Virus record (IMG/VR): IMGVR_UViG_3300027973_000139
Location: 1 to 33,573 of that record
Source of the DNA: a virus
Direction: 5' to 3' (one strand)
DNA length: 33,573 nt
In this document: positions 4,507 to 33,573 of the stretch, one piece after another
How the letters are laid out: the number at the start of each line of letters is the position of its first letter
How positions within the stretch are numbered: the stretch's first letter is position 1
Translations under genes and position numbers: made by a program
The notes under the pieces: generated by a model
What the model was told of the DNA's origin: nothing
Database searches by the model: none
The model's input: the letters and a program-made list of their open reading frames with translations, nothing else

Positions 4507-5667
4507 CTAGGGTTTCAACTCCCAAAACTTCGCCGCCTCCGCCCGAGTCTTAATCGCTCGATAATGCCGGTGCAGCATCGCAGCCGACTCATGGCCCATC
4601 TGCACCTGCAGAGCCGCCTCATTTTGATGATGCGCATAGTGCATCGAGGCAAACGTATGCCGCAGCGCATTGTGAGGCCACTCACCATGCACAGGCTTAA
4701 CTTGAGCGCGCTTGACTCGCTTTTCACCCGCGCCCACAGCATAACCCAGAGCATGGCGGAATAACCGCCACCGCGCATCCCACCACGGGCCACAGATCTT
4801 GCCACTCATCTCGACGCCACCGGCCCGAATCCATGCCACCGCATTTGAGCATAGATCCACGACCCGCCGCCGACGCGTCTTCGCCTGGCTGCCAGCCACA
4901 ATCACCGTGCCAGCGTCAAGATCCACCGAACTCCAGTCCAGCCTCGCAATCTCCGCCGGTCGCAATCCTCCAAACATCCCCAGCACCACAAAGCCCATCA
5001 TGTCCGGCTGCGCGACCGCAGCCCGCAGCAGCTGCTCACACTGGCTCAGCGTCAGCGTGCCGATCTCGCCCTCGGCGGTCTTTTGGCGATCGATCTCCAC
5101 CACCGGATTGATCCGCACATAACCCTCCTTGAGTGCCCAGCTAAACATCGCGCTCACATCCCCCGCATACCCATTCCGCGTGCGACCCGCCCACGATCCC
5201 GAGTGCAGCCAGCCTTCCACATCCTCACGCTTCACCTCGTGAGCCATTGCCGCAGGCAAATGCCGCGCCAAAGATCCCAGCGATACCCCAAGCTGCCGAT
5301 AATATCGCTCCGAGCATCCCGCCTTATCCTTCGCATCACGAAACGTCTCCACCAGGTCAGCCAAGAGCATTGGCTTAGTCATTGTCTTCGCGTGCGCCAG
5401 ATAAAAATCCACCGCCTGCCCAATGGTCGCCCCAGTCACCAGCAATCGTTCCCGTGCCAGCACAATCTCCGCCATCTCTCGACCCGTCATCGAGCTTGCC
5501 AAAGCCCCATGCCGAGCCTGAGCCTCCTGCGCATTTTTCACCGCTTTTTTAGCCTCATCCTCTGTCGGATAAGATCTTTGCACACGTTTCCCCTCGATTT
5601 CACCCAGATCGACCTGCCAACCCACCTTTCCCGAAGCATAAATCCGACGCCGTATTTTCACGGCCAC
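4507..5667 (-). CDS. int: Tyrosine-recombinase integrase
   Basis: The 386-residue protein carries out site-specific recombination between attP and a host attB. An N-terminal arm-binding-type region (RIYASGKVGWQVDLGEIEGK) is followed by a SAM-like core-binding domain at about 82-180 and the catalytic domain at 200-386. Visible catalytic residues are Arg236 (GGLRPAEIARL), a Lys near 263 (QAKTRRRR), His332 and Arg336 (HNALRHTF), His359 (MGHES) and nucleophile Tyr369 (LHRHYR). The start is GTG 5667, since an in-frame stop lies just upstream. attP lies immediately upstream of the gene. The 386-residue length is normal for lambda-type phage integrases. Confidence 0.95.
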   Translation of the reverse strand: MAVKIRRRIYASGKVGWQVDLGEIEGKRVQRSYPTEDEAKKAVKNAQEAQARHGALASSMTGREMAEIVLARERLLVTGATIGQAVDFYLAHAKTMTKPMLLADLVETFRDAKDKAGCSERYYRQLGVSLGSLARHLPAAMAHEVKREDVEGWLHSGSWAGRTRNGYAGDVSAMFSWALKEGYVRINPVVEIDRQKTAEGEIGTLTLSQCEQLLRAAVAQPDMMGFVVLGMFGGLRPAEIARLDWSSVDLDAGTVIVAGSQAKTRRRRVVDLCSNAVAWIRAGGVEMSGKICGPWWDARWRLFRHALGYAVGAGEKRVKRAQVKPVHGEWPHNALRHTFASMHYAHHQNEAALQVQMGHESAAMLHRHYRAIKTRAEAAKFWELKP

Positions 5668-5680
5668 AGCCTATGACCAC

Positions 5681-5739
5681 GTCACGCCCAAGTCACGCTA
5701 AAAAACACGATTCAACCCGATTCAGTCGGTTTTAAAGGG
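5681..5739. promoter_or_regulatory. Probable integrase arm-type repeats next to attP
   Basis: Between int and the core are paired direct repeats spaced about one helical turn: GTCACGC at 5681-5687 and 5692-5698, and CGATTCA at 5708-5714 and 5718-5724. TTTAAAGGG at 5731-5739 recurs at 5810-5818 on the other side of the core. This matches the layout of arm-binding sites around a phage core site, but no binding specificity is known. Confidence 0.45.
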
Positions 5740-5768
5740 TATCCTCTCCCTGTAGCCCCCTGCTACAG

Positions 5769-5791
5769 TGGTGCCTGAGACAGGACTCGAA
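5769..5791 (-). other. attP core matching a tRNA 3' end
   Basis: On the minus strand the sequence reads TTCGAGT (T-loop), CCTGT (T-stem), CTCAGGC (acceptor), A (discriminator), CCA, exactly the last 23 positions of a tRNA. The 5' T-stem partner (ACAGG) is absent, so this is not a tRNA gene but the segment that regenerates a host tRNA 3' end on integration. It lies 101 bp from the integrase start. A 7-bp inverted repeat, CTGTAGC / GCTACAG (5750-5768), abuts the CCA side. Confidence 0.8.
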
Positions 5792-5859
5792 GCGTGCTAG
5801 GGCATCGCATTTAAAGGGGATGGAGGAGGCGCGTTGCGGATGCGTCACGGCTGGGACGG

Positions 5860-6291
5860 CTATCTGCGGACGTGAGTGATTCGGGTGAGGGGGAAGGGGG
5901 CGATGGTGACGGCGTCACTTTGATTGCCGCCTAGGCAGAATGCCTTGGTTCCTTGGATGCGGTCAAGGAGACAGACGTGGTTGCCGCCGGGGCGGGTCAT
6001 GACGATGGTGTCACCACGTTGCCAGAGGAGGGGCTCGGTGATGTCGATGGGGCTACCCCATTTAGCCCAGGCGGCGGCGCGGTAGTGCTCAGGGGGACAG
6101 CCGGTGGCGGTCTCGATGGCGAGGTGACCTCGGAAGGCTCCGCACCAGGGGGTTTTACTGTCGTCTTTGTCGAGCCATGTGGCAGCTTGTTTGATCCAGC
6201 GGGTGATAGTGGGATTTGTGGCCGCTCCAGGGGTTTCTTTGGTGCCGAGGTAGGGCAGGGCGGCGGCGTAGATCTTGGCAGAGGTGGACAT
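5860..6291 (-). CDS. Endolysin, CHAP/NlpC-like peptidoglycan hydrolase (TIGR02594-like)
   Basis: The 143-residue protein resembles the TIGR02594/CHAP family of small phage and bacterial cell-wall amidases or endopeptidases. It opens with a short helix and YLGTKETPGAATNPTITRWI, then TPWCGAF with the nucleophile Cys50, GDTIVMTRPGGNHVCLL with His105, and LGGNQSD with Asn123 as a probable third catalytic residue. It has no signal peptide, so release would depend on the upstream holin. It ends the lysis cassette next to attP. A TTGACA element lies 13 bases before ATG 6291, and an intrinsic terminator separates it from the holin gene. Confidence 0.85.
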   Translation of the reverse strand: MSTSAKIYAAALPYLGTKETPGAATNPTITRWIKQAATWLDKDDSKTPWCGAFRGHLAIETATGCPPEHYRAAAWAKWGSPIDITEPLLWQRGDTIVMTRPGGNHVCLLDRIQGTKAFCLGGNQSDAVTIAPFPLTRITHVRR

Positions 6292-25838: not shown

Positions 25839-27629
25839 TCACATGAAGCCAGGCACGGTGCGTGCAATCCATAAGCCCATGAGGGCGAGCTTTGAGCAGT
25901 CGCCGTAATGGTCAGCAGGGACTTTTTTCCAGAGGTTCGTGCTCTTGTCTTTCATCTGCCCTGCATGGCCAAGGATGACATCGGCATCGGCATCACTCGG
26001 CAGGTGGAAGCCAGGCGTGGTGTGGCGTGAGATGCGCGCACCGTAGAGCTCGTCCTTGGCCTGCGTGTCAGAATACGTGTAGAGTTTCAAGTTAGGCCGA
26101 GAGGCTGCACGAGTCTCATTGATGGCTCCGTGCTTGGCGTCGGAACCTTTGGTGGGCCAATAGAACCCACCGGATGCCTGACAAATATCATACTGGGTTT
26201 CCGTCAAATAACCTGAGTCGATGTAACCGACTTGTGGCACGATCTTTTCCCCGGTGCCTGGCACAGTGTAAAGCCGATGCCGCAGGAACTCAGCCGAGAT
26301 TAATTCACGAGAAGAAAGCAGCGTGCCCCAGTCGATGACAAACAGACCGCCGTTTGCATCCACCGCCGTGACTTCCCAATGCGTGAGACGTTCACCAGGG
26401 TCAGCCGTTATCATGAGCAGCCGCGGCTTGAACGGCAAAGCCCCGCGCCCGTAGTCACGGCTGATGCATTGCTTTACCGTTTCCTCTTTCACATTGTAGG
26501 CCAGATCACTCCAGCAGTTCGCCAGCCATGAGTTCGCGTGATTTTGATGATTGGCAAACAGGTCACTGGGCTTGATGCGATTCCATGCAATGTCGCCAAA
26601 GGTCAGGGCCGGTGAATAAAAGCTGGGCAGGCGGAAGGATCGGTTGCGATCACTCGCGCCGGGATTCAGGTCCATCTTCTCCACATCATCCAGCATCCCC
26701 AGGCGGCAGTCCTCAGGGATCGGGAACGCACAGGCCGGACAAATGAAGCGGATGGACTCACGCACCTTCTGCTCGATCCACAGCCCACGGGAATCCTTGG
26801 CCTCAGGAGACCACACCAGCGACCGATAATCTGGCCCGACCTTTTCATAGCCAGGATGACGATCGTCATGAGTTTTGTCAGGCCAATCCTCAAACGGGAA
26901 ACGATGCTGGCAGTGCGGGCAGCTCACTAGGAAGTGCGTCTGCGACCCCGCCTCATACCGAGTCCAAAACGGATGGGTGATAATGTTCGGTGAGCTCGAC
27001 TTGTAGCGGAAGGCATCGGCACCAAAGCTTTTCGCACGTTCATCGGCCAGATCCATCGGGTGGGCCTCGGGGCTGTCTTCATTGCTGTGATGCTCAAACT
27101 TGCAGCACTCGTCCTGAAAGATGTCCTGCTCAGAAGTCGAGGCCAGATTGGCGGGTGAATTCGTCCCCGTGAGGCGGATCGCACCGCCCAGCATGTCCAT
27201 TTCCATGTCCGTGAAATGGTCTTTGTTTGCGGGTTTCCTCTCCGCCAAGATCGGATTTCCATTGATCAGCGGCTGCAGTTTTTTTCTGCTCACCGCCTTC
27301 TGGGCCGTGTCCTTAGTCGGGAACACGATCAGCTTGGGTGAAGGCACGTGCACCATCCGATAGACCAGCATCATCAGCAGGCCAAAAGTTTTGAAGACCT
27401 GCGTGGCCGAGCAAGTCGTCACATCCGTGATCCCCAGCGATGGGTTCGCGCATTCGAGGATATGTTTCGCAAAGCCCTGATGCTGCAATGAAAACGGTGA
27501 CGACGATCCATGCACCCGCGCCGGTGACATCGAGCGCGGGATCGAAATGTTTTTCGTCAAAAAGTCCACCACCTCAGGCCGCTGATCGATGAGGAACTGC
27601 CTCAAGAAATGTTCACGCCGCGCACTCAT
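25839..27629 (-). CDS. terL: Terminase large subunit, GpA family
   Basis: The start is ATG 27629 (MSARREHFLRQFLIDQRPEV), giving 596 residues, because it overlaps the upstream stop as ATGA; the longer frame lies in the TerS gene. A deviant ATP-binding motif (CSATQVFKTF) is followed by the Walker B-like FQDECC. A zinc-binding pair (SCPHCQHRF, then CPACAFPIPE) and nuclease-type acidic motifs follow (ITADPGERLTHWEV, YIDSGYLTETQ). This set is typical of lambda GpA-type terminases. It cuts and pumps DNA into the head. It follows the TerS candidate and precedes the portal block. Confidence 0.9.
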   Translation of the reverse strand: MSARREHFLRQFLIDQRPEVVDFLTKNISIPRSMSPARVHGSSSPFSLQHQGFAKHILECANPSLGITDVTTCSATQVFKTFGLLMMLVYRMVHVPSPKLIVFPTKDTAQKAVSRKKLQPLINGNPILAERKPANKDHFTDMEMDMLGGAIRLTGTNSPANLASTSEQDIFQDECCKFEHHSNEDSPEAHPMDLADERAKSFGADAFRYKSSSPNIITHPFWTRYEAGSQTHFLVSCPHCQHRFPFEDWPDKTHDDRHPGYEKVGPDYRSLVWSPEAKDSRGLWIEQKVRESIRFICPACAFPIPEDCRLGMLDDVEKMDLNPGASDRNRSFRLPSFYSPALTFGDIAWNRIKPSDLFANHQNHANSWLANCWSDLAYNVKEETVKQCISRDYGRGALPFKPRLLMITADPGERLTHWEVTAVDANGGLFVIDWGTLLSSRELISAEFLRHRLYTVPGTGEKIVPQVGYIDSGYLTETQYDICQASGGFYWPTKGSDAKHGAINETRAASRPNLKLYTYSDTQAKDELYGARISRHTTPGFHLPSDADADVILGHAGQMKDKSTNLWKKVPADHYGDCSKLALMGLWIARTVPGFM

Positions 27630-28309
27630 GCCGCTAATTCTGGAAGCTCCCCATTCAAGATGAACCGTTGCACCACCGGGTTGATTCGTTTCTGAATCCA
27701 CTCTTCAAACAGATTTCGCACCCTCCCCGGATTCGTCGGATCGATCTGCGCCGCCAAGTCTGGCACCAATGACTTCCAAAGATCCGCCAGCCTCCGCGCA
27801 TCCTGGCAGAGTGCTTCATATTCCGAAACCGGCAGCAGCCGCTTGTTTTCAATATCCGCCTGCACCCGCTTCGCCCTGGCCACATGATACGACGCCAGGC
27901 ACTGGCACGCGATCCGCGCAAAGCCAGCCGCCGTGATGCTATCTGAGCGCGCCAGCCTTTCCGCCGCCGAGGAATTCTCCGTAAACATCTGCCACGCCAC
28001 CACCTCCGCATGCTCCTCCGGCGTCCTTTCTTCGATCGGCTTCCCGTAGCCCGGCGGCTTCGGTGCCTGATCTTCACCCTCCTCCACACCAGGCGGCGAT
28101 TCCTTCAGCCTTTTCGTCAGTGCCAAAATCTGCACCACCCCCGGAGTCTCCTTCGGGCTGTGAACCTTCCGCCCCTGAGTCGCCAGCCACGCGATCCACT
28201 TCGGGTTGTTCTTCTTGCAGTGGTCCTGTGCCGTGCGCTTTGTCGCACAATGCGGCAGCACCTCACGCCAGTAAGCCGTGATGAGATCTGCGTTTCTATG
28301 CTCAGACAT
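27626..28309 (-). CDS. Terminase small subunit candidate
   Basis: The protein from ATG 28309 (MSEHRNADLITAYWREVLPH) has 227 residues; ATG 28333 (MRKGAIRAM) is an alternative. The N-terminal region (TKRTAQDHCKKNNPKWIAWL) resembles a small DNA-binding unit. The rest is helical, with two helix pairs (LARSDSITAAGFARIACQCL, EYEALCQDARRLADLWKSLV) and a coupled stop into terL. Position and size fit a TerS, but no family motif is clear. The large upstream non-coding region could contain its binding site. Confidence 0.7.
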   Translation of the reverse strand: MSEHRNADLITAYWREVLPHCATKRTAQDHCKKNNPKWIAWLATQGRKVHSPKETPGVVQILALTKRLKESPPGVEEGEDQAPKPPGYGKPIEERTPEEHAEVVAWQMFTENSSAAERLARSDSITAAGFARIACQCLASYHVARAKRVQADIENKRLLPVSEYEALCQDARRLADLWKSLVPDLAAQIDPTNPGRVRNLFEEWIQKRINPVVQRFILNGELPELAA

Positions 28310-28325
28310 TGCGCGAATTGCCCCT

Positions 28326-28340
28326 TTGCGCATCTCGCAA
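28326..28340. promoter_or_regulatory. TTGCG-N5-CGCAA palindrome before the packaging operon
   Basis: A perfect 5-bp inverted repeat around five bases lies just upstream of the TerS start, with further GCGC and TTGCG copies over the next 60 bases. The half-site resembles the TTGC/GCAA arms of the O1/O2 operators but with wider spacing. A TTGACA (28341-28346) is adjacent. It could be a late-operon control site. Confidence 0.4.
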
Positions 28341-28470
28341 TGTCAAAACGCAAACCCTGCGCGGAATCATTGCGCATTCACCATAGCGCACCCACTCCCA
28401 AACACGCAAGAAGACATTAAACCTGCGGGGAGGGTGGGCTGTAAAAAAAGATTCCTTACCCGCCCCCACC

Positions 28471-28751
28471 ATGACGGGGGTGACGGGCCGTGACGGCACC
28501 GAGAAACGCCAGCCGTCACTGTGGAACAATATGTGGAACCGTTCCCTTTTTAGTTGGTGACGGCAGTGACGGAAGATTTGAATCAGATTAACTCAAAATA
28601 TAGAGAGTATAGAAAGAGACAGATTCGCGGCTTGATACGCGGGGATGCCGGAAGTTTTACCGTCACGCCGTCACGCCTAACGTTCCACGCTTATTCTTTG
28701 GGCGTTCCACTGTGACGGCATGACGTTTCAAAAGGCGTAACGAGCCGTCAC
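28471..28751. other. Probable replication origin with GTGACGG iterons
   Basis: The 490-bp stretch between the helicase and TerS genes has no gene. It contains exact GTGACGG at 28480, 28490, 28557, 28566 and 28712 and CCGTCAC at 28513, 28660, 28668 and 28745, with near copies at 28471 and 28720. GTGGAAC at 28521 and 28533 is mirrored by GTTCCAC at 28682 and 28704. Together CCGTCACTGTGGAAC (28513-28527) and GTTCCACTGTGACGG (28704-28718) form a 14/15 inverted repeat. It encloses an AT-rich stretch at about 28573-28620. Iterons plus an easily melted centre next to primase and helicase genes suggest the origin. A multi-site regulatory region is the main alternative. Confidence 0.65.
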
Positions 28752-28802
28752 ACAAGCCGATTTTCTGAGCCCGAGTAACGGGCGATCAAAGGGGCGCAGC
28801 CC

Positions 28803-30416
28803 TTAGGCTGAAGGTGGGCCGATGATCCAGCCCTTCCACTCGCGGGTATCTCCTTTGGAGATCCTTGTGTCTCTCAATGTATCCTCAGCATGCAGGCCGC
28901 TGAGCAGGCGGCTGCATTTGTTGTGCTGGAAGAGTTTCTTGGCCATGGTTGCCACGTTGCAGTGGTAACCAGACTCACCTGTCAAAAGCATCTGCAGCGT
29001 GTCGGCCTTGCCTTGCCACAGCTTCACCCTGTATCCGGTGGGCAAATAGCCCAGGTCTTTGTCACCGATGATGTCCCATAATCTGGCATCATCAGGAACG
29101 GCCGCATAGTTCTCATCACTTGGGAATGAGCCGTTGCGTTTAAACGTGGCCGAGTCGATCAGGCTCAGCAATTGAGCCGCAGGAGTATCTTCCCACAGTT
29201 CACCCTTGATCACCGGCGAGTGATATTCACGGAAGCCAAAGCGCGTGGCGTTGGTCCCCTCAGGATACTGCTTCAGGTCCTCAGGGATCTGCCACTCATT
29301 CAGCAGCCAATGAAGATACGCTGGCAGCTCACGCTCCATCGTCTCACGAAACTCCTTCTGGTTCTCGATCGTGTTCGTCGTGATGATCGGCAGAGGCTTC
29401 GAAGCACAATGAAAAATCAGCACCTTGTCACCAAAGTCATTCGTGATCAGCGGCAGACTCCTCAGCTTATCTGGGTCATCATTCACCGAGATCGTCAGTC
29501 TCCAGAAAGGGCTCACACTGCACGGCTCAGTCCTCATCAGTCGCATACGTTGCGCAGGGTTCGCCACGATCTGCTTGATCTTCTCAGCCAGGCTCGTCCG
29601 GTCCACAGTTCGCTGCGATGGCGTCGGGATCTCAGACAGCATCAGATGCTCAGCACTGAACACGTCACCATTGAACTCATCTGCCTCAAAGAGAAACTTC
29701 GCCGGATCAGCAAAGCGACCGTAGCCACCCAACAGAGGCGTGATCACCTGCTCCTGCAGACGGTTCTTCCCGCAGCCTCGTGGCCCAGTCAGGATCATCG
29801 CATGACCGGCACGCCAGTGACCAGGCTCTCCCTCGCGTATCGACTCCGCCGCCACCTTGCACCAGCTGTGAAAATAGGGCGTCTGATCCGTGCCACCGCC
29901 CTCACTGCGATCCAGCAAACCGTGAATCATCTGGCGCATATTCGCCCACTCACCGGCCACAGGTTTGACCAGCTTCGGCGCATTCTTCACCAGCACCTTC
30001 TCGCCCGAGTCCAGCTCATGCACGCGGCTCTCATAGCCCGGCAGGGAAGGGATCACATCATCGAGGGCACGATTCTGCCGCACATACAGCAGCACCTTCT
30101 TCGCCTCGCTCAGCATCTCATTCTCACGCGCCTTGATCGCAATCATCCGTCCTGGCAAAGACCGCATGCAGTCCACCGTCGCATCCTTCGTCCATCGATC
30201 CCATCTCGCCATCGACTCCGATTTCATGTAAAAATTGTCTCCGTCCCCTGACTTCCAATAAATTTTCATTTCTTCTGCGACCGTCGCAGAATCGAAAAAC
30301 AAAGGCGCAGCCGCAGCCTCGCCTGATTGGAATGACGCCGGGGCATCCGCCTCCGACTTCGCCACCTTGCCACGTCTAGGGTTAGGCAGTTTCTCTGCTT
30401 TCTTTGGTTTGCTCAC
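28803..30416 (-). CDS. D5/DUF5906-like superfamily III helicase
   Basis: The 537-residue protein starts at GTG 30416 (VSKPKKAEKLPNPRRGKVAK) and has a basic, disordered N-terminus. The ATPase core starts at about 204 (HAMILTGPRGCGKNRLQEQV), with Walker A GPRGCGKN (211-218) in which the usual Ser/Thr after Lys217 is Asn. Walker B-like and sensor parts follow (FLFEADEFNGDVFSAEHLML, then LTISVNDDPDKLRSLPLITN). This architecture is that of D5-like phage replication helicases of the DUF5906 type. It is encoded beside the CHC2 primase and the iteron region, so it is probably the replicative helicase. Confidence 0.8.
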   Translation of the reverse strand: MSKPKKAEKLPNPRRGKVAKSEADAPASFQSGEAAAAPLFFDSATVAEEMKIYWKSGDGDNFYMKSESMARWDRWTKDATVDCMRSLPGRMIAIKARENEMLSEAKKVLLYVRQNRALDDVIPSLPGYESRVHELDSGEKVLVKNAPKLVKPVAGEWANMRQMIHGLLDRSEGGGTDQTPYFHSWCKVAAESIREGEPGHWRAGHAMILTGPRGCGKNRLQEQVITPLLGGYGRFADPAKFLFEADEFNGDVFSAEHLMLSEIPTPSQRTVDRTSLAEKIKQIVANPAQRMRLMRTEPCSVSPFWRLTISVNDDPDKLRSLPLITNDFGDKVLIFHCASKPLPIITTNTIENQKEFRETMERELPAYLHWLLNEWQIPEDLKQYPEGTNATRFGFREYHSPVIKGELWEDTPAAQLLSLIDSATFKRNGSFPSDENYAAVPDDARLWDIIGDKDLGYLPTGYRVKLWQGKADTLQMLLTGESGYHCNVATMAKKLFQHNKCSRLLSGLHAEDTLRDTRISKGDTREWKGWIIGPPSA

Positions 30417-31665: not shown

Positions 31666-31899
31666 TCAATTCACCTCCACCATTTTGATTTTCCTGATCG
31701 CGTTAAAATGCCCCTCGGGCGGAGGCGGCATTGGGTGATCGATCACGCTCATGCGGCTGCGTTTGTAGCAGCGCACCTCGCAGCCGTAGAGCTCCAGCAT
31801 CGCCACCAGATCCCCCATCAGGCAGCTCTTACCGCTGCCACGTTGACCTGTGATCGTGATCGTGATGTCAGGCCCGTGTTCATTAGTTAGATAGTTCAC
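31666..31899 (-). CDS. Miniature P-loop protein, 77 aa
   Basis: The protein from GTG 31899 overlaps the ParB-like stop (GTGA). Residues 12-25 (TITITGQRGSGKSC) form a strand and a perfect Walker A (GQRGSGKS). A helix (LMGDLVAMLELYGCEVRCYK) and a short tail follow. No Walker B or second half of an ATPase fold is present, so it may be a degenerate NTPase, a nucleotide-binding accessory or a subunit that pairs with another protein. Its location between ParB-like and primase genes suggests a DNA-replication or segregation role, but this is inference. Confidence 0.65.
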   Translation of the reverse strand: MNYLTNEHGPDITITITGQRGSGKSCLMGDLVAMLELYGCEVRCYKRSRMSVIDHPMPPPPEGHFNAIRKIKMVEVN

Positions 31900-33293
31900 C
31901 AGGTCTGCCCTCCCAGAGTGTCAGCATCCAGCCCGACCTCCTGCGCCATACGTTTCAGCATGTAGCCCGGAGAGCCCACCGCATCGATCTCCGCCGCCAT
32001 GAGCAGCATCAAAGCGTGGCGGAGAGGCGCACGCTGCCGCTTGTCCTGCTTCAGCCACATCACCAGCTCATCGGTGCTGTTGATGCCAAGCCAAGCATGC
32101 AGAGCCCAGTCCATCCCCACCTCAGCTTGAAAGACCAGCCGATCCAGCACCAGCTCCCACGGCCCGCTGGTCATCACCACCGCAGGCTTCTCCTGCATAG
32201 CTTCCCAGATCGCACCCATGAACAGCTTCACCTGAGCTCGCTGCTCATCATTCAAATCAGCGTGCTTCTCCACGTCCGGCTCCTGGCATGGTATAAAATC
32301 CACATGCATTTGATCGTCATCTTGCTCAAGCGTATCTGGCACGTCAGCTGACCGATCCGCAGGCTTCACGCTTTCCGCATCACGCAGCATCTTCCAGCTC
32401 ACCAGCAGCACATACTTGTCACAGTGCAGCGGCGCAGGCACCACATACACCGGCACACCCAGCCGCTTCGCCTTCTCCTGCCAGCGTTCACCATCCGTGC
32501 CCTTCGGCATCAGACCGTCACCATATTCAAAGTCAGGATAAGGCTGACCACTCAGCCCCATCGTGTAGTCACTCATGATCTCATAGTCCACGTAGATGTA
32601 GCCATCGATCACCCGAAACCGCTTCTTCAGCTGCGTCTGCATCTCCAGCCATTGGCGTCGATACTTCGCAGGCAGAATGTAGTTTGCCTCCACCAGGTCA
32701 CGCGCCGCCTTATAGCTCAGCGGCTCGCCCATCATGTCTTCCAGCACCAGCTGAGTCGCCGCAGCACGGTCCTTCTTATCCGGCACCTGCAGCAGCACCT
32801 CCGCCACATTGACGCTGAGCAGTCCCTTAGCCAGGGCAGACCGACCCGCCTGAGACAGACCCTCACCCAGATCAAACCACAGCTGTGCCCGTTCATGCGT
32901 CACCCCCATCGCTGGGGCCAAATCAGAAATCGTCAGACCCAGCCGCACCCCGTTTTCGATCGCGCACACCTTCTCCTCATTGTTCAGCGGCTCAGTGTGC
33001 CCGTGATCCTGCAGCAGGTATTGAAACGCCTGTGCCTCATCATCAAAATGATGAATCACCTGCGCGCACTCCTCCCAGCCCAGTCGAGTCATCGCCGCGA
33101 AACGCCGGTGCCCCTTTAGCAGCAGATCCCGATCAGGACGCGGCCAGATATGGATCGCATCTTGCAGTCCCATCAGCGTCAGAGATTCCATCATCTCCTC
33201 GATCTTCACGCAGCTATTGCCACGAGGATTGACTTCCCATTCCTCCACTCGGGCCAGAGATCTGACCACCGCAATGCCATTGTTTTCGTTCAT
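31896..33293 (-). CDS. ParB/Srx-domain protein
   Basis: The 465-residue protein has an N-terminal ParB-type domain at about 10-95 (RVEEWEVNPRGNSCVKIEEM, then RDLLLKGHRRFAAMTRLGWE). A helical centre follows with a possible HTH-like part (GLTISDLAPAMGVTHERAQL). The long C-terminal region (about 200-465) is not familiar. No ParA partner is visible unless the next small P-loop gene is a relic. Phage ParB-domain proteins can act in replication, recombination or gene regulation, and some cut DNA or use CTP. The role here is inferred to be DNA metabolism or partition. Confidence 0.8.
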   Translation of the reverse strand: MNENNGIAVVRSLARVEEWEVNPRGNSCVKIEEMMESLTLMGLQDAIHIWPRPDRDLLLKGHRRFAAMTRLGWEECAQVIHHFDDEAQAFQYLLQDHGHTEPLNNEEKVCAIENGVRLGLTISDLAPAMGVTHERAQLWFDLGEGLSQAGRSALAKGLLSVNVAEVLLQVPDKKDRAAATQLVLEDMMGEPLSYKAARDLVEANYILPAKYRRQWLEMQTQLKKRFRVIDGYIYVDYEIMSDYTMGLSGQPYPDFEYGDGLMPKGTDGERWQEKAKRLGVPVYVVPAPLHCDKYVLLVSWKMLRDAESVKPADRSADVPDTLEQDDDQMHVDFIPCQEPDVEKHADLNDEQRAQVKLFMGAIWEAMQEKPAVVMTSGPWELVLDRLVFQAEVGMDWALHAWLGINSTDELVMWLKQDKRQRAPLRHALMLLMAAEIDAVGSPGYMLKRMAQEVGLDADTLGGQTW

Positions 33294-33335: not shown

Positions 33336-33573
33336 TCACAGCCCCAGCCGCCGCAGATCAGCCGCCTCATGCAGCCGTTGCAGTCGCGCTCGCAGCTCCA
33401 GCGCGCTCAGCCCCTTAAATTCAGGCTTCACCGGCACACCCTCGATCAGCTCCGCATGCTCCTTCTTCACCGCTTGACTGGCACTCTCAGAAAGATCCTC
33501 ATCATCGGCAGGCGCAGCTTTCGGCACTCGGTTTTCATTCCCGATCTGGGCCGCGTGGTAGCGTTCCCGTGTC
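33336..33573 (-). CDS. C-terminal part of the junction-spanning early gene
   Basis: This is the right-hand copy of the last 78 codons of the gene that begins at 710 and reads through the terminal overlap. It is open at 33573 (TRERYHAAQIGNENRVPKAA) and ends at TGA 33338-33336. The unique C-terminus (EFKGLSALELRARLQRLHEA) is a leucine-rich helix. The frame matches the left copy exactly across the join. Confidence 0.8.
   Translation of the reverse strand, partial: TRERYHAAQIGNENRVPKAAPADDEDLSESASQAVKKEHAELIEGVPVKPEFKGLSALELRARLQRLHEAADLRRLGL
33424..33573. repeat. Terminal overlap, right copy
   Basis: It matches 1-150 as described for the left copy: 120 bp identical (33454-33573) and four synonymous mismatches in the first 30 bases. 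Confidence 0.9.

Follow-up and report, generated by a model that had tools for sequence, protein, structure and literature searches.

The window, that is, the whole stretch of DNA analysed here, is a 33,573-bp virus record (IMG/VR IMGVR_UViG_3300027973_000139) that carries the genes of a tailed temperate phage, among them those for a tyrosine integrase (4507-5667), a tape measure protein, a major head protein, a protease, a portal and a gpA-type large terminase subunit (TerL). Its two ends (1-150 and 33424-33573) are 97% identical, with 126 bp exact, which suggests that the assembly was circularly closed or permuted. The genes on the minus strand follow one another as ParB-like protein, CHC2 primase, DUF5906 helicase, an intergenic region of 469 bp, a putative small terminase subunit (terS), for which no family match was found, and TerL (Table 1). 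The gene-free stretch harbors two adjoining sites, a mirrored repeat array and a 12-base cos site, which are 56 bp apart. The end of the array lies about 50 bp from the helicase stop, a position that is the same in relatives. The original prediction had placed the repeats directly after the helicase and primase genes; they are indeed found downstream of the helicase, and they are also located directly upstream of terS, between the two.

Table 1. Genes and sequence features at the locus, ordered by position (A = GTGACGG, B = GTGGAAC)
Feature	Positions	Strand	Basis or remarks
Terminase large subunit (TerL), gpA type	25839..27701	-	
Putative terminase small subunit (terS)	27626..28333	-	Position and size; overlaps TerL
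cosB-like stretch with TGCGC repeats, terS side of cosN	28310..28411	.	Proposed from position and association with terS type
cosN, 12-nt cohesive-end sequence AGACATTAAACC	28412..28423	.	Contig ends of G006, G012, G019, L080, L157, L191, G011
Conserved AAAAAAGATTCCTTACCC element between cosN and array	28444..28461	.	cosQ position; putative function
Left arm	28480..28572	+	A(28480+) A(28490+) A(28513-) B(28521+) B(28533+) A(28557+) A(28566+)
AT-rich core	28573..28659	.	Candidate melting region; GC 0.39, with the most AT in the 40-mer 28576-28615
CGCGGCTTG element in core	28626..28634	+	Alignment; partly inverted copy of 28753-28765
Right arm, mirror of left	28660..28751	-	A(28660-) A(28668-) B(28682-) B(28704-) A(28712+) degenerate A(28735-28741) A(28745-)
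Conserved CAAGCCGATTTTC at right-arm border	28753..28765	+	Roughly 88% identical among relatives
Putative initiator helicase, 537 aa, DUF5906 AAA+/P-loop	28803..30416	-	C-terminal domain modelled winged-helix-like
Primase, DnaG-type CHC2 zinc ribbon, 403 aa	30441..31652	-	Exchanged together with helicase and array in a single block
ParB-like protein gene	31896-33293	-	Weak match to ParB families

The helicase matches DUF5906 with an E value of 1.5e-05 and 26.0 bits, under the curated Pfam cut-off of 27.6 bits, and the same family is matched by all of the aligned helicase members (11/11); placing the protein in a SaPI Rep or D5 family is tentative. A profile search of the PDB with this protein returned chance matches only and no sequence relative, and its full-length AlphaFold2 model (pLDDT 38.5) provides no reliable structure. 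The model of the C-terminal 160 residues predicts a helix-strand-helix-helix-strand-strand order, with pLDDT values of 85-92 over residues 91-130. Foldseek found nothing significant with this model in the PDB and viral libraries, and a second structure comparison listed many winged-helix DNA-binding domains, all at low Z scores (2-5, winged-helix at most 4.7), which is suggestive of a winged-helix-like C-terminal domain. As for the primase, its match at G021 1-1230 and G022 1055-2332 is split in two (query residues 1-204 and 189-403), and the pieces sit in long open frames, an insertion or a domain break being possible.

The array, the helicase and terS had no match in the phage collection searched with them. 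The closest cultured phage relative of TerL is that of Akkermansia phage Moulinsart (34.7%), and the proposal that Verrucomicrobiota are the hosts of this phage group is a guess from the host of that phage. Two scans of bacterial genome contigs, one with TerL and one with the helicase profile, revealed no prophage.

A mirrored array of two motifs

Between 28480 and 28751, GTGACGG is found in nine exact copies on both strands, against an expectation of 0.09 in the 308-bp stretch and a maximum of two in 1000 dinucleotide shuffles, while GTGGAAC occurs four times in the entire window, always within the array. Counts, shuffles and whole-window search thus confirm the numbers of both motifs originally given, and the proposed spacing of 8-10 bp between neighbouring direct copies is found at three pairs (28480/28490, 28557/28566 and 28660/28668). 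The repeats also enclose an AT-rich core, as had been noted, with a GC content of 0.39 compared to 0.55-0.59 in the arms, and the 40-mer at 28576 ranks among the lowest-GC stretches of the window. The inverted repeat reported as 15 bp with 14 matches exists, and was measured as 16 nt with 15 matches (28512-28527 / 28704-28719). The span of 28441-28755 first assigned to the array contains it, and includes in addition the separate conserved element at 28444-28461.

The array is organised as a dyad of 7+7 elements, which reads A A (A reversed) B B A A inward from 28480 and, reverse-complemented, from 28751. The offsets of the elements are 0, 10, 33, 41, 53, 77 and 86 in the left arm and 0, 10, 33, 41, 63, 77 and 85 in the right arm, and local alignment of the two halves gives a score of 56, compared to 18.1 ± 2.9 in 1000 shuffles (maximum 32). 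A third conserved pair, GCGGCTTG / CAAGCCG, partly inverted, frames the right arm (28626-28634 and 28753-28765). Elsewhere in the window there are 16 copies of GTGACGG, and a special role for them was rejected, the count being unremarkable under codon shuffling (11 observed within scored ORFs, 9.3 expected).

Conservation follows the motifs. Identity of the window bases to 12 relatives is 78% inside the motifs versus 42% between them, and none of 2000 random masks was as good as the motif mask. The right, helicase-side arm is better conserved than the left one, in which the elements at 28490 and 28533 are weakly conserved (12 relatives; 28480 not scored) and which in some relatives is devoid of GTGGAAC. 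The relatives share a mirrored plan, -A 8 +B 22 +B 13/14 +A (8 +A) on both sides, which is clearest in G019, L189 and G004, and from which the left arm of the window deviates by one helical turn, its two B elements being spaced by 12 instead of 22. The pattern CCGTCACNGTGGAAC was too permissive and was discarded. An AT-rich 40-mer is found in the relatives too, either between the two arms or along the inner border of these. In the relatives with 63% helicase identity (L200-L202), the GTGACGG copies are kept and GTGGAAC is absent.

Exchange of the array with the primase and helicase genes

This type of array is present in the window and in 20 of the 20 relative contigs that contain both a helicase 63-77% identical to that of the window and the sequence downstream of it, and it is absent from G001 and G005, neither of which has a relative of the window helicase. 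G001 is 94% identical to the window up to 28467 and 95% identical again from 31666, just outside the start codon of the primase. Between window positions 28468 and 31665, array, helicase and primase are all replaced, with sharp breakpoints, one of which falls between the cos region and the array. The helicase of G001 and G005, with 94% identity between its two copies, is another DUF5906 protein, for which neither BLASTP nor profile comparison detected any similarity to the window helicase, and the array that accompanies it is of a GTGACC type, with 8 copies in each. The iteron sequence therefore changes along with the helicase in this swap, and the primase is swapped too. Judged from this inheritance, the array belongs to the primase–helicase pair, the two members of which are not separated by a one-block swap; primase, helicase and putative origin would be exchanged as a cassette, one edge of which lies between cos and the origin.

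The genes on both sides behave differently. In G001, terS is 99% identical and the ParB-like protein 98% identical to those of the window despite the other array. Conversely, the array is kept in relatives whose terS is only 26-33% identical or undetectable, and several array-bearing relatives have a ParB-like protein that is 25-34% identical or undetected. Because both proteins are unchanged in G001 and diverged or undetected in array-bearing relatives, the array appears to be the site of neither of them, which also argues against the ParB-like protein, one of the candidate binders of the original prediction.

The adjoining cos site

Cohesive 5' ends that have been end-filled give a 12-base duplication at both ends of a sequence. 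The same 12-mer (AGACnnTAAACC-like) starts and ends three full-length relatives of 35-37 kb, G006, G012 and G019, whose terminal 12-mers are AGACATAAAACC, AGACGTTAAACC and AGACAATTAAAC, respectively. Moreover, contigs L080, L157 and L191 start exactly at the cosN base, G011 ends there, and G004 ends at most one base away. The assignment of cos from these contig termini is very secure.

On the terS side of cosN, the TGCGC repeats are replaced by TGTCGC in several relatives with a distant terS, and neither is clear in G019 and L200. On the array side, the conserved AAAAAGATTCCTTACCC element occurs next to both types of array, including that of G001 and G005, and in relatives with a distant terS, and a AAGGAATCT copy of the conserved element is also located at 316-324 of Akkermansia phage Moulinsart, upstream of the gene in the position of terS. 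The anatomy of cos in lambda is cosQ-cosN-cosB (PMC6092414), to which, by position, the TGCGC stretch would correspond as cosB and the element at 28444-28461 as cosQ. The site resembles that of lambda in its 12-nt cohesive ends, the repeats on the terS side, the short conserved element opposite and the gpA-type TerL, and differs from it in sequence and in the candidate replication origin located 56 bp from cosN. The lambda origin lies inside gene O, far from cos.

Reading of the array and its alternatives

The array (28480-28751) is very probably the replication origin of the phage, bound by the adjoining helicase. What the sequence shows is the array itself, its mirror symmetry and conservation, its co-inheritance and swapping with the primase–helicase pair, and the contig termini at cosN. 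In the account of PMC6092414, SaPI/PICI origins are located immediately 3' of rep, with two iteron sets that flank a region rich in AT, and the rep-ori segment is able to replicate on its own; the SaPI Rep protein, as described in PMC7581432, recognises its origin via its C-terminal domain. Every feature of these origins that can be tested by sequence appears in the array, given that the site lies directly 3' of the putative initiator-helicase gene and two repeat arms flank the AT-rich core. The best reading would thus be a variant of the SaPI/PICI type of origin, with two motifs in mirrored arms, that abuts cos. The iteron-type origin of the original prediction is well supported by the mirrored iterons, the AT-rich core and the co-swap with primase and helicase, although the cos site had been missed. 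The claim of an unusual layout has to be toned down, since the SaPI/PICI plan already has two iteron sets around an AT-rich region 3' of rep. The GC-skew check that had been suggested gave no clear origin signal and could give none, since nearly all genes are on one strand, which makes the skew uninformative. The skew reverses sharply at 5500-5900 of the window, where the integrase gene is located, close to where attP and the border between late and early genes are expected.

The closest likeness is to the pri-rep-ori order described for SaPI/PICI, the phage-inducible islands of Staphylococcus and of Gram-negative bacteria, in which a primase gene and an initiator-helicase gene are followed by an origin directly 3', and in which helicase and iterons change together, as observed here among the relatives. 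Unlike those elements, the window is a full cos phage and not a satellite, its repeat sets mirror each other, combine two classes of motif and keep their spacing, its helicase shows no relationship in BLASTP to the alternative one of its close relatives, and its putative origin abuts the phage's own cos. The D5-type helicase Cch2 of SCCmec also has putative origin repeats immediately downstream of its gene, and binds these iterons via its C-terminal domain (PMC7581432), but there are three iterons there versus 14 elements in two arms here, and its partner is the primase-polymerase CCPol-MP instead of a CHC2 primase. Finally, the mirrored sites would fit the head-to-head loading of the SF3 double hexamers SV40 T-antigen and papillomavirus E1, the former of which is loaded as two opposed hexamers at two origin positions (PMC9894130), although the origin-binding domain is N-terminal in these proteins (PMC7581432) and no homology is shown.

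It could also be argued that the repeats are operators of a phage regulator acting on the late (terS) promoter or on the replication genes, as mirrored repeats are a common form of operator and the array precedes the terS-TerL operon. This is quite unlikely, since the 14 sites over 270 bp with an AT-rich core are far above the usual size of an operator, the array is exchanged together with primase and helicase but independently of the adjacent terS and ParB-like genes, and no sigma-70-like promoter was found in 28300-28900, with the provision that the sigma-70 model may not be that of the host. A packaging signal (cosB/pac), whose repeats would be bound by the small terminase subunit to start packaging, is suggested by the short distance to cosN, by the intergenic region shared with the start of terS, and by lambda, whose TerS binds repeated R sites in the cosB adjoining cosN (PMC6092414). 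Such a role is very unlikely for an array that lies on the side of cosN away from terS, where the terS side has its own TGCGC set (or TGTCGC in several distant-terS relatives), that is unrelated in G001 to an array accompanying a nearly unchanged terS, and that is retained next to strongly diverged ones. Highly improbable is the proposal that the inverted repeats work as a folded single strand or RNA, such as a single-strand initiation hairpin or a structured 3' untranslated region, instead of a duplex binding array, for which the single strand folds unusually well (z -5.4), a folding that follows by construction from the mirrored copies. The covariation term is nil (+0.07, 13 sequences), for which RNA structure was rejected, and no Rfam family was matched. 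A partition site (parS/centromere) for the ParB-like protein is scarcely credible, given that, even if repeat arrays serve as centromeres and the gene weakly matches ParB families, this protein is conserved in G001, which is devoid of the array, and poorly or not conserved in several array-bearing relatives.

For the array as a replication origin, the model that we infer for protein binding, melting, helicase loading and bidirectionality proposes that the C-terminal domain of the helicase recognises the GTGACGG/GTGGAAC elements, and that each mirrored arm would seat one helicase oligomer, with the AT-rich core between the two opposed oligomers. This core would then melt and two helicase rings would be loaded in opposite orientations, so that the CHC2 primase, encoded upstream, could prime bidirectional copying of the circularised genome. 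Concatemers would be cut by the terminase at cos, 56 bp from the origin, leaving 12-nt cohesive ends. Origin and cos might further constitute one composite control element that switches the genome from copying to packaging, which we consider unlikely. According to this extension, the helicase bound to the mirrored arms, at such a distance from cosN, would keep the terminase off cos during replication, and its release once initiation stops would license packaging, with the copying/packaging switch contained in the same 450 bp.

The principle is ordinary and the detail elegant. An environmental temperate phage group, lacking close relatives in the searched phage collection, would thereby have a sharply defined, testable origin and packaging site, and the satellite-type replicon of a helicase plus downstream iterons would also serve full phages. 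The GTGACGG/GTGGAAC and GTGACC arrays, each with its own helicase, could be regarded as a natural experiment in the recognition of origins by initiator helicases. The alternative array, with GTGACC/GGTCAC on both strands, was observed at 5981-6361 of L150 (G001) and at 1-302 of L144, and the 'hypothetical protein' behind the primase of Akkermansia phage Moulinsart (L213; 28204-29805) is related to the G001-type helicase, with an identity of 29%.
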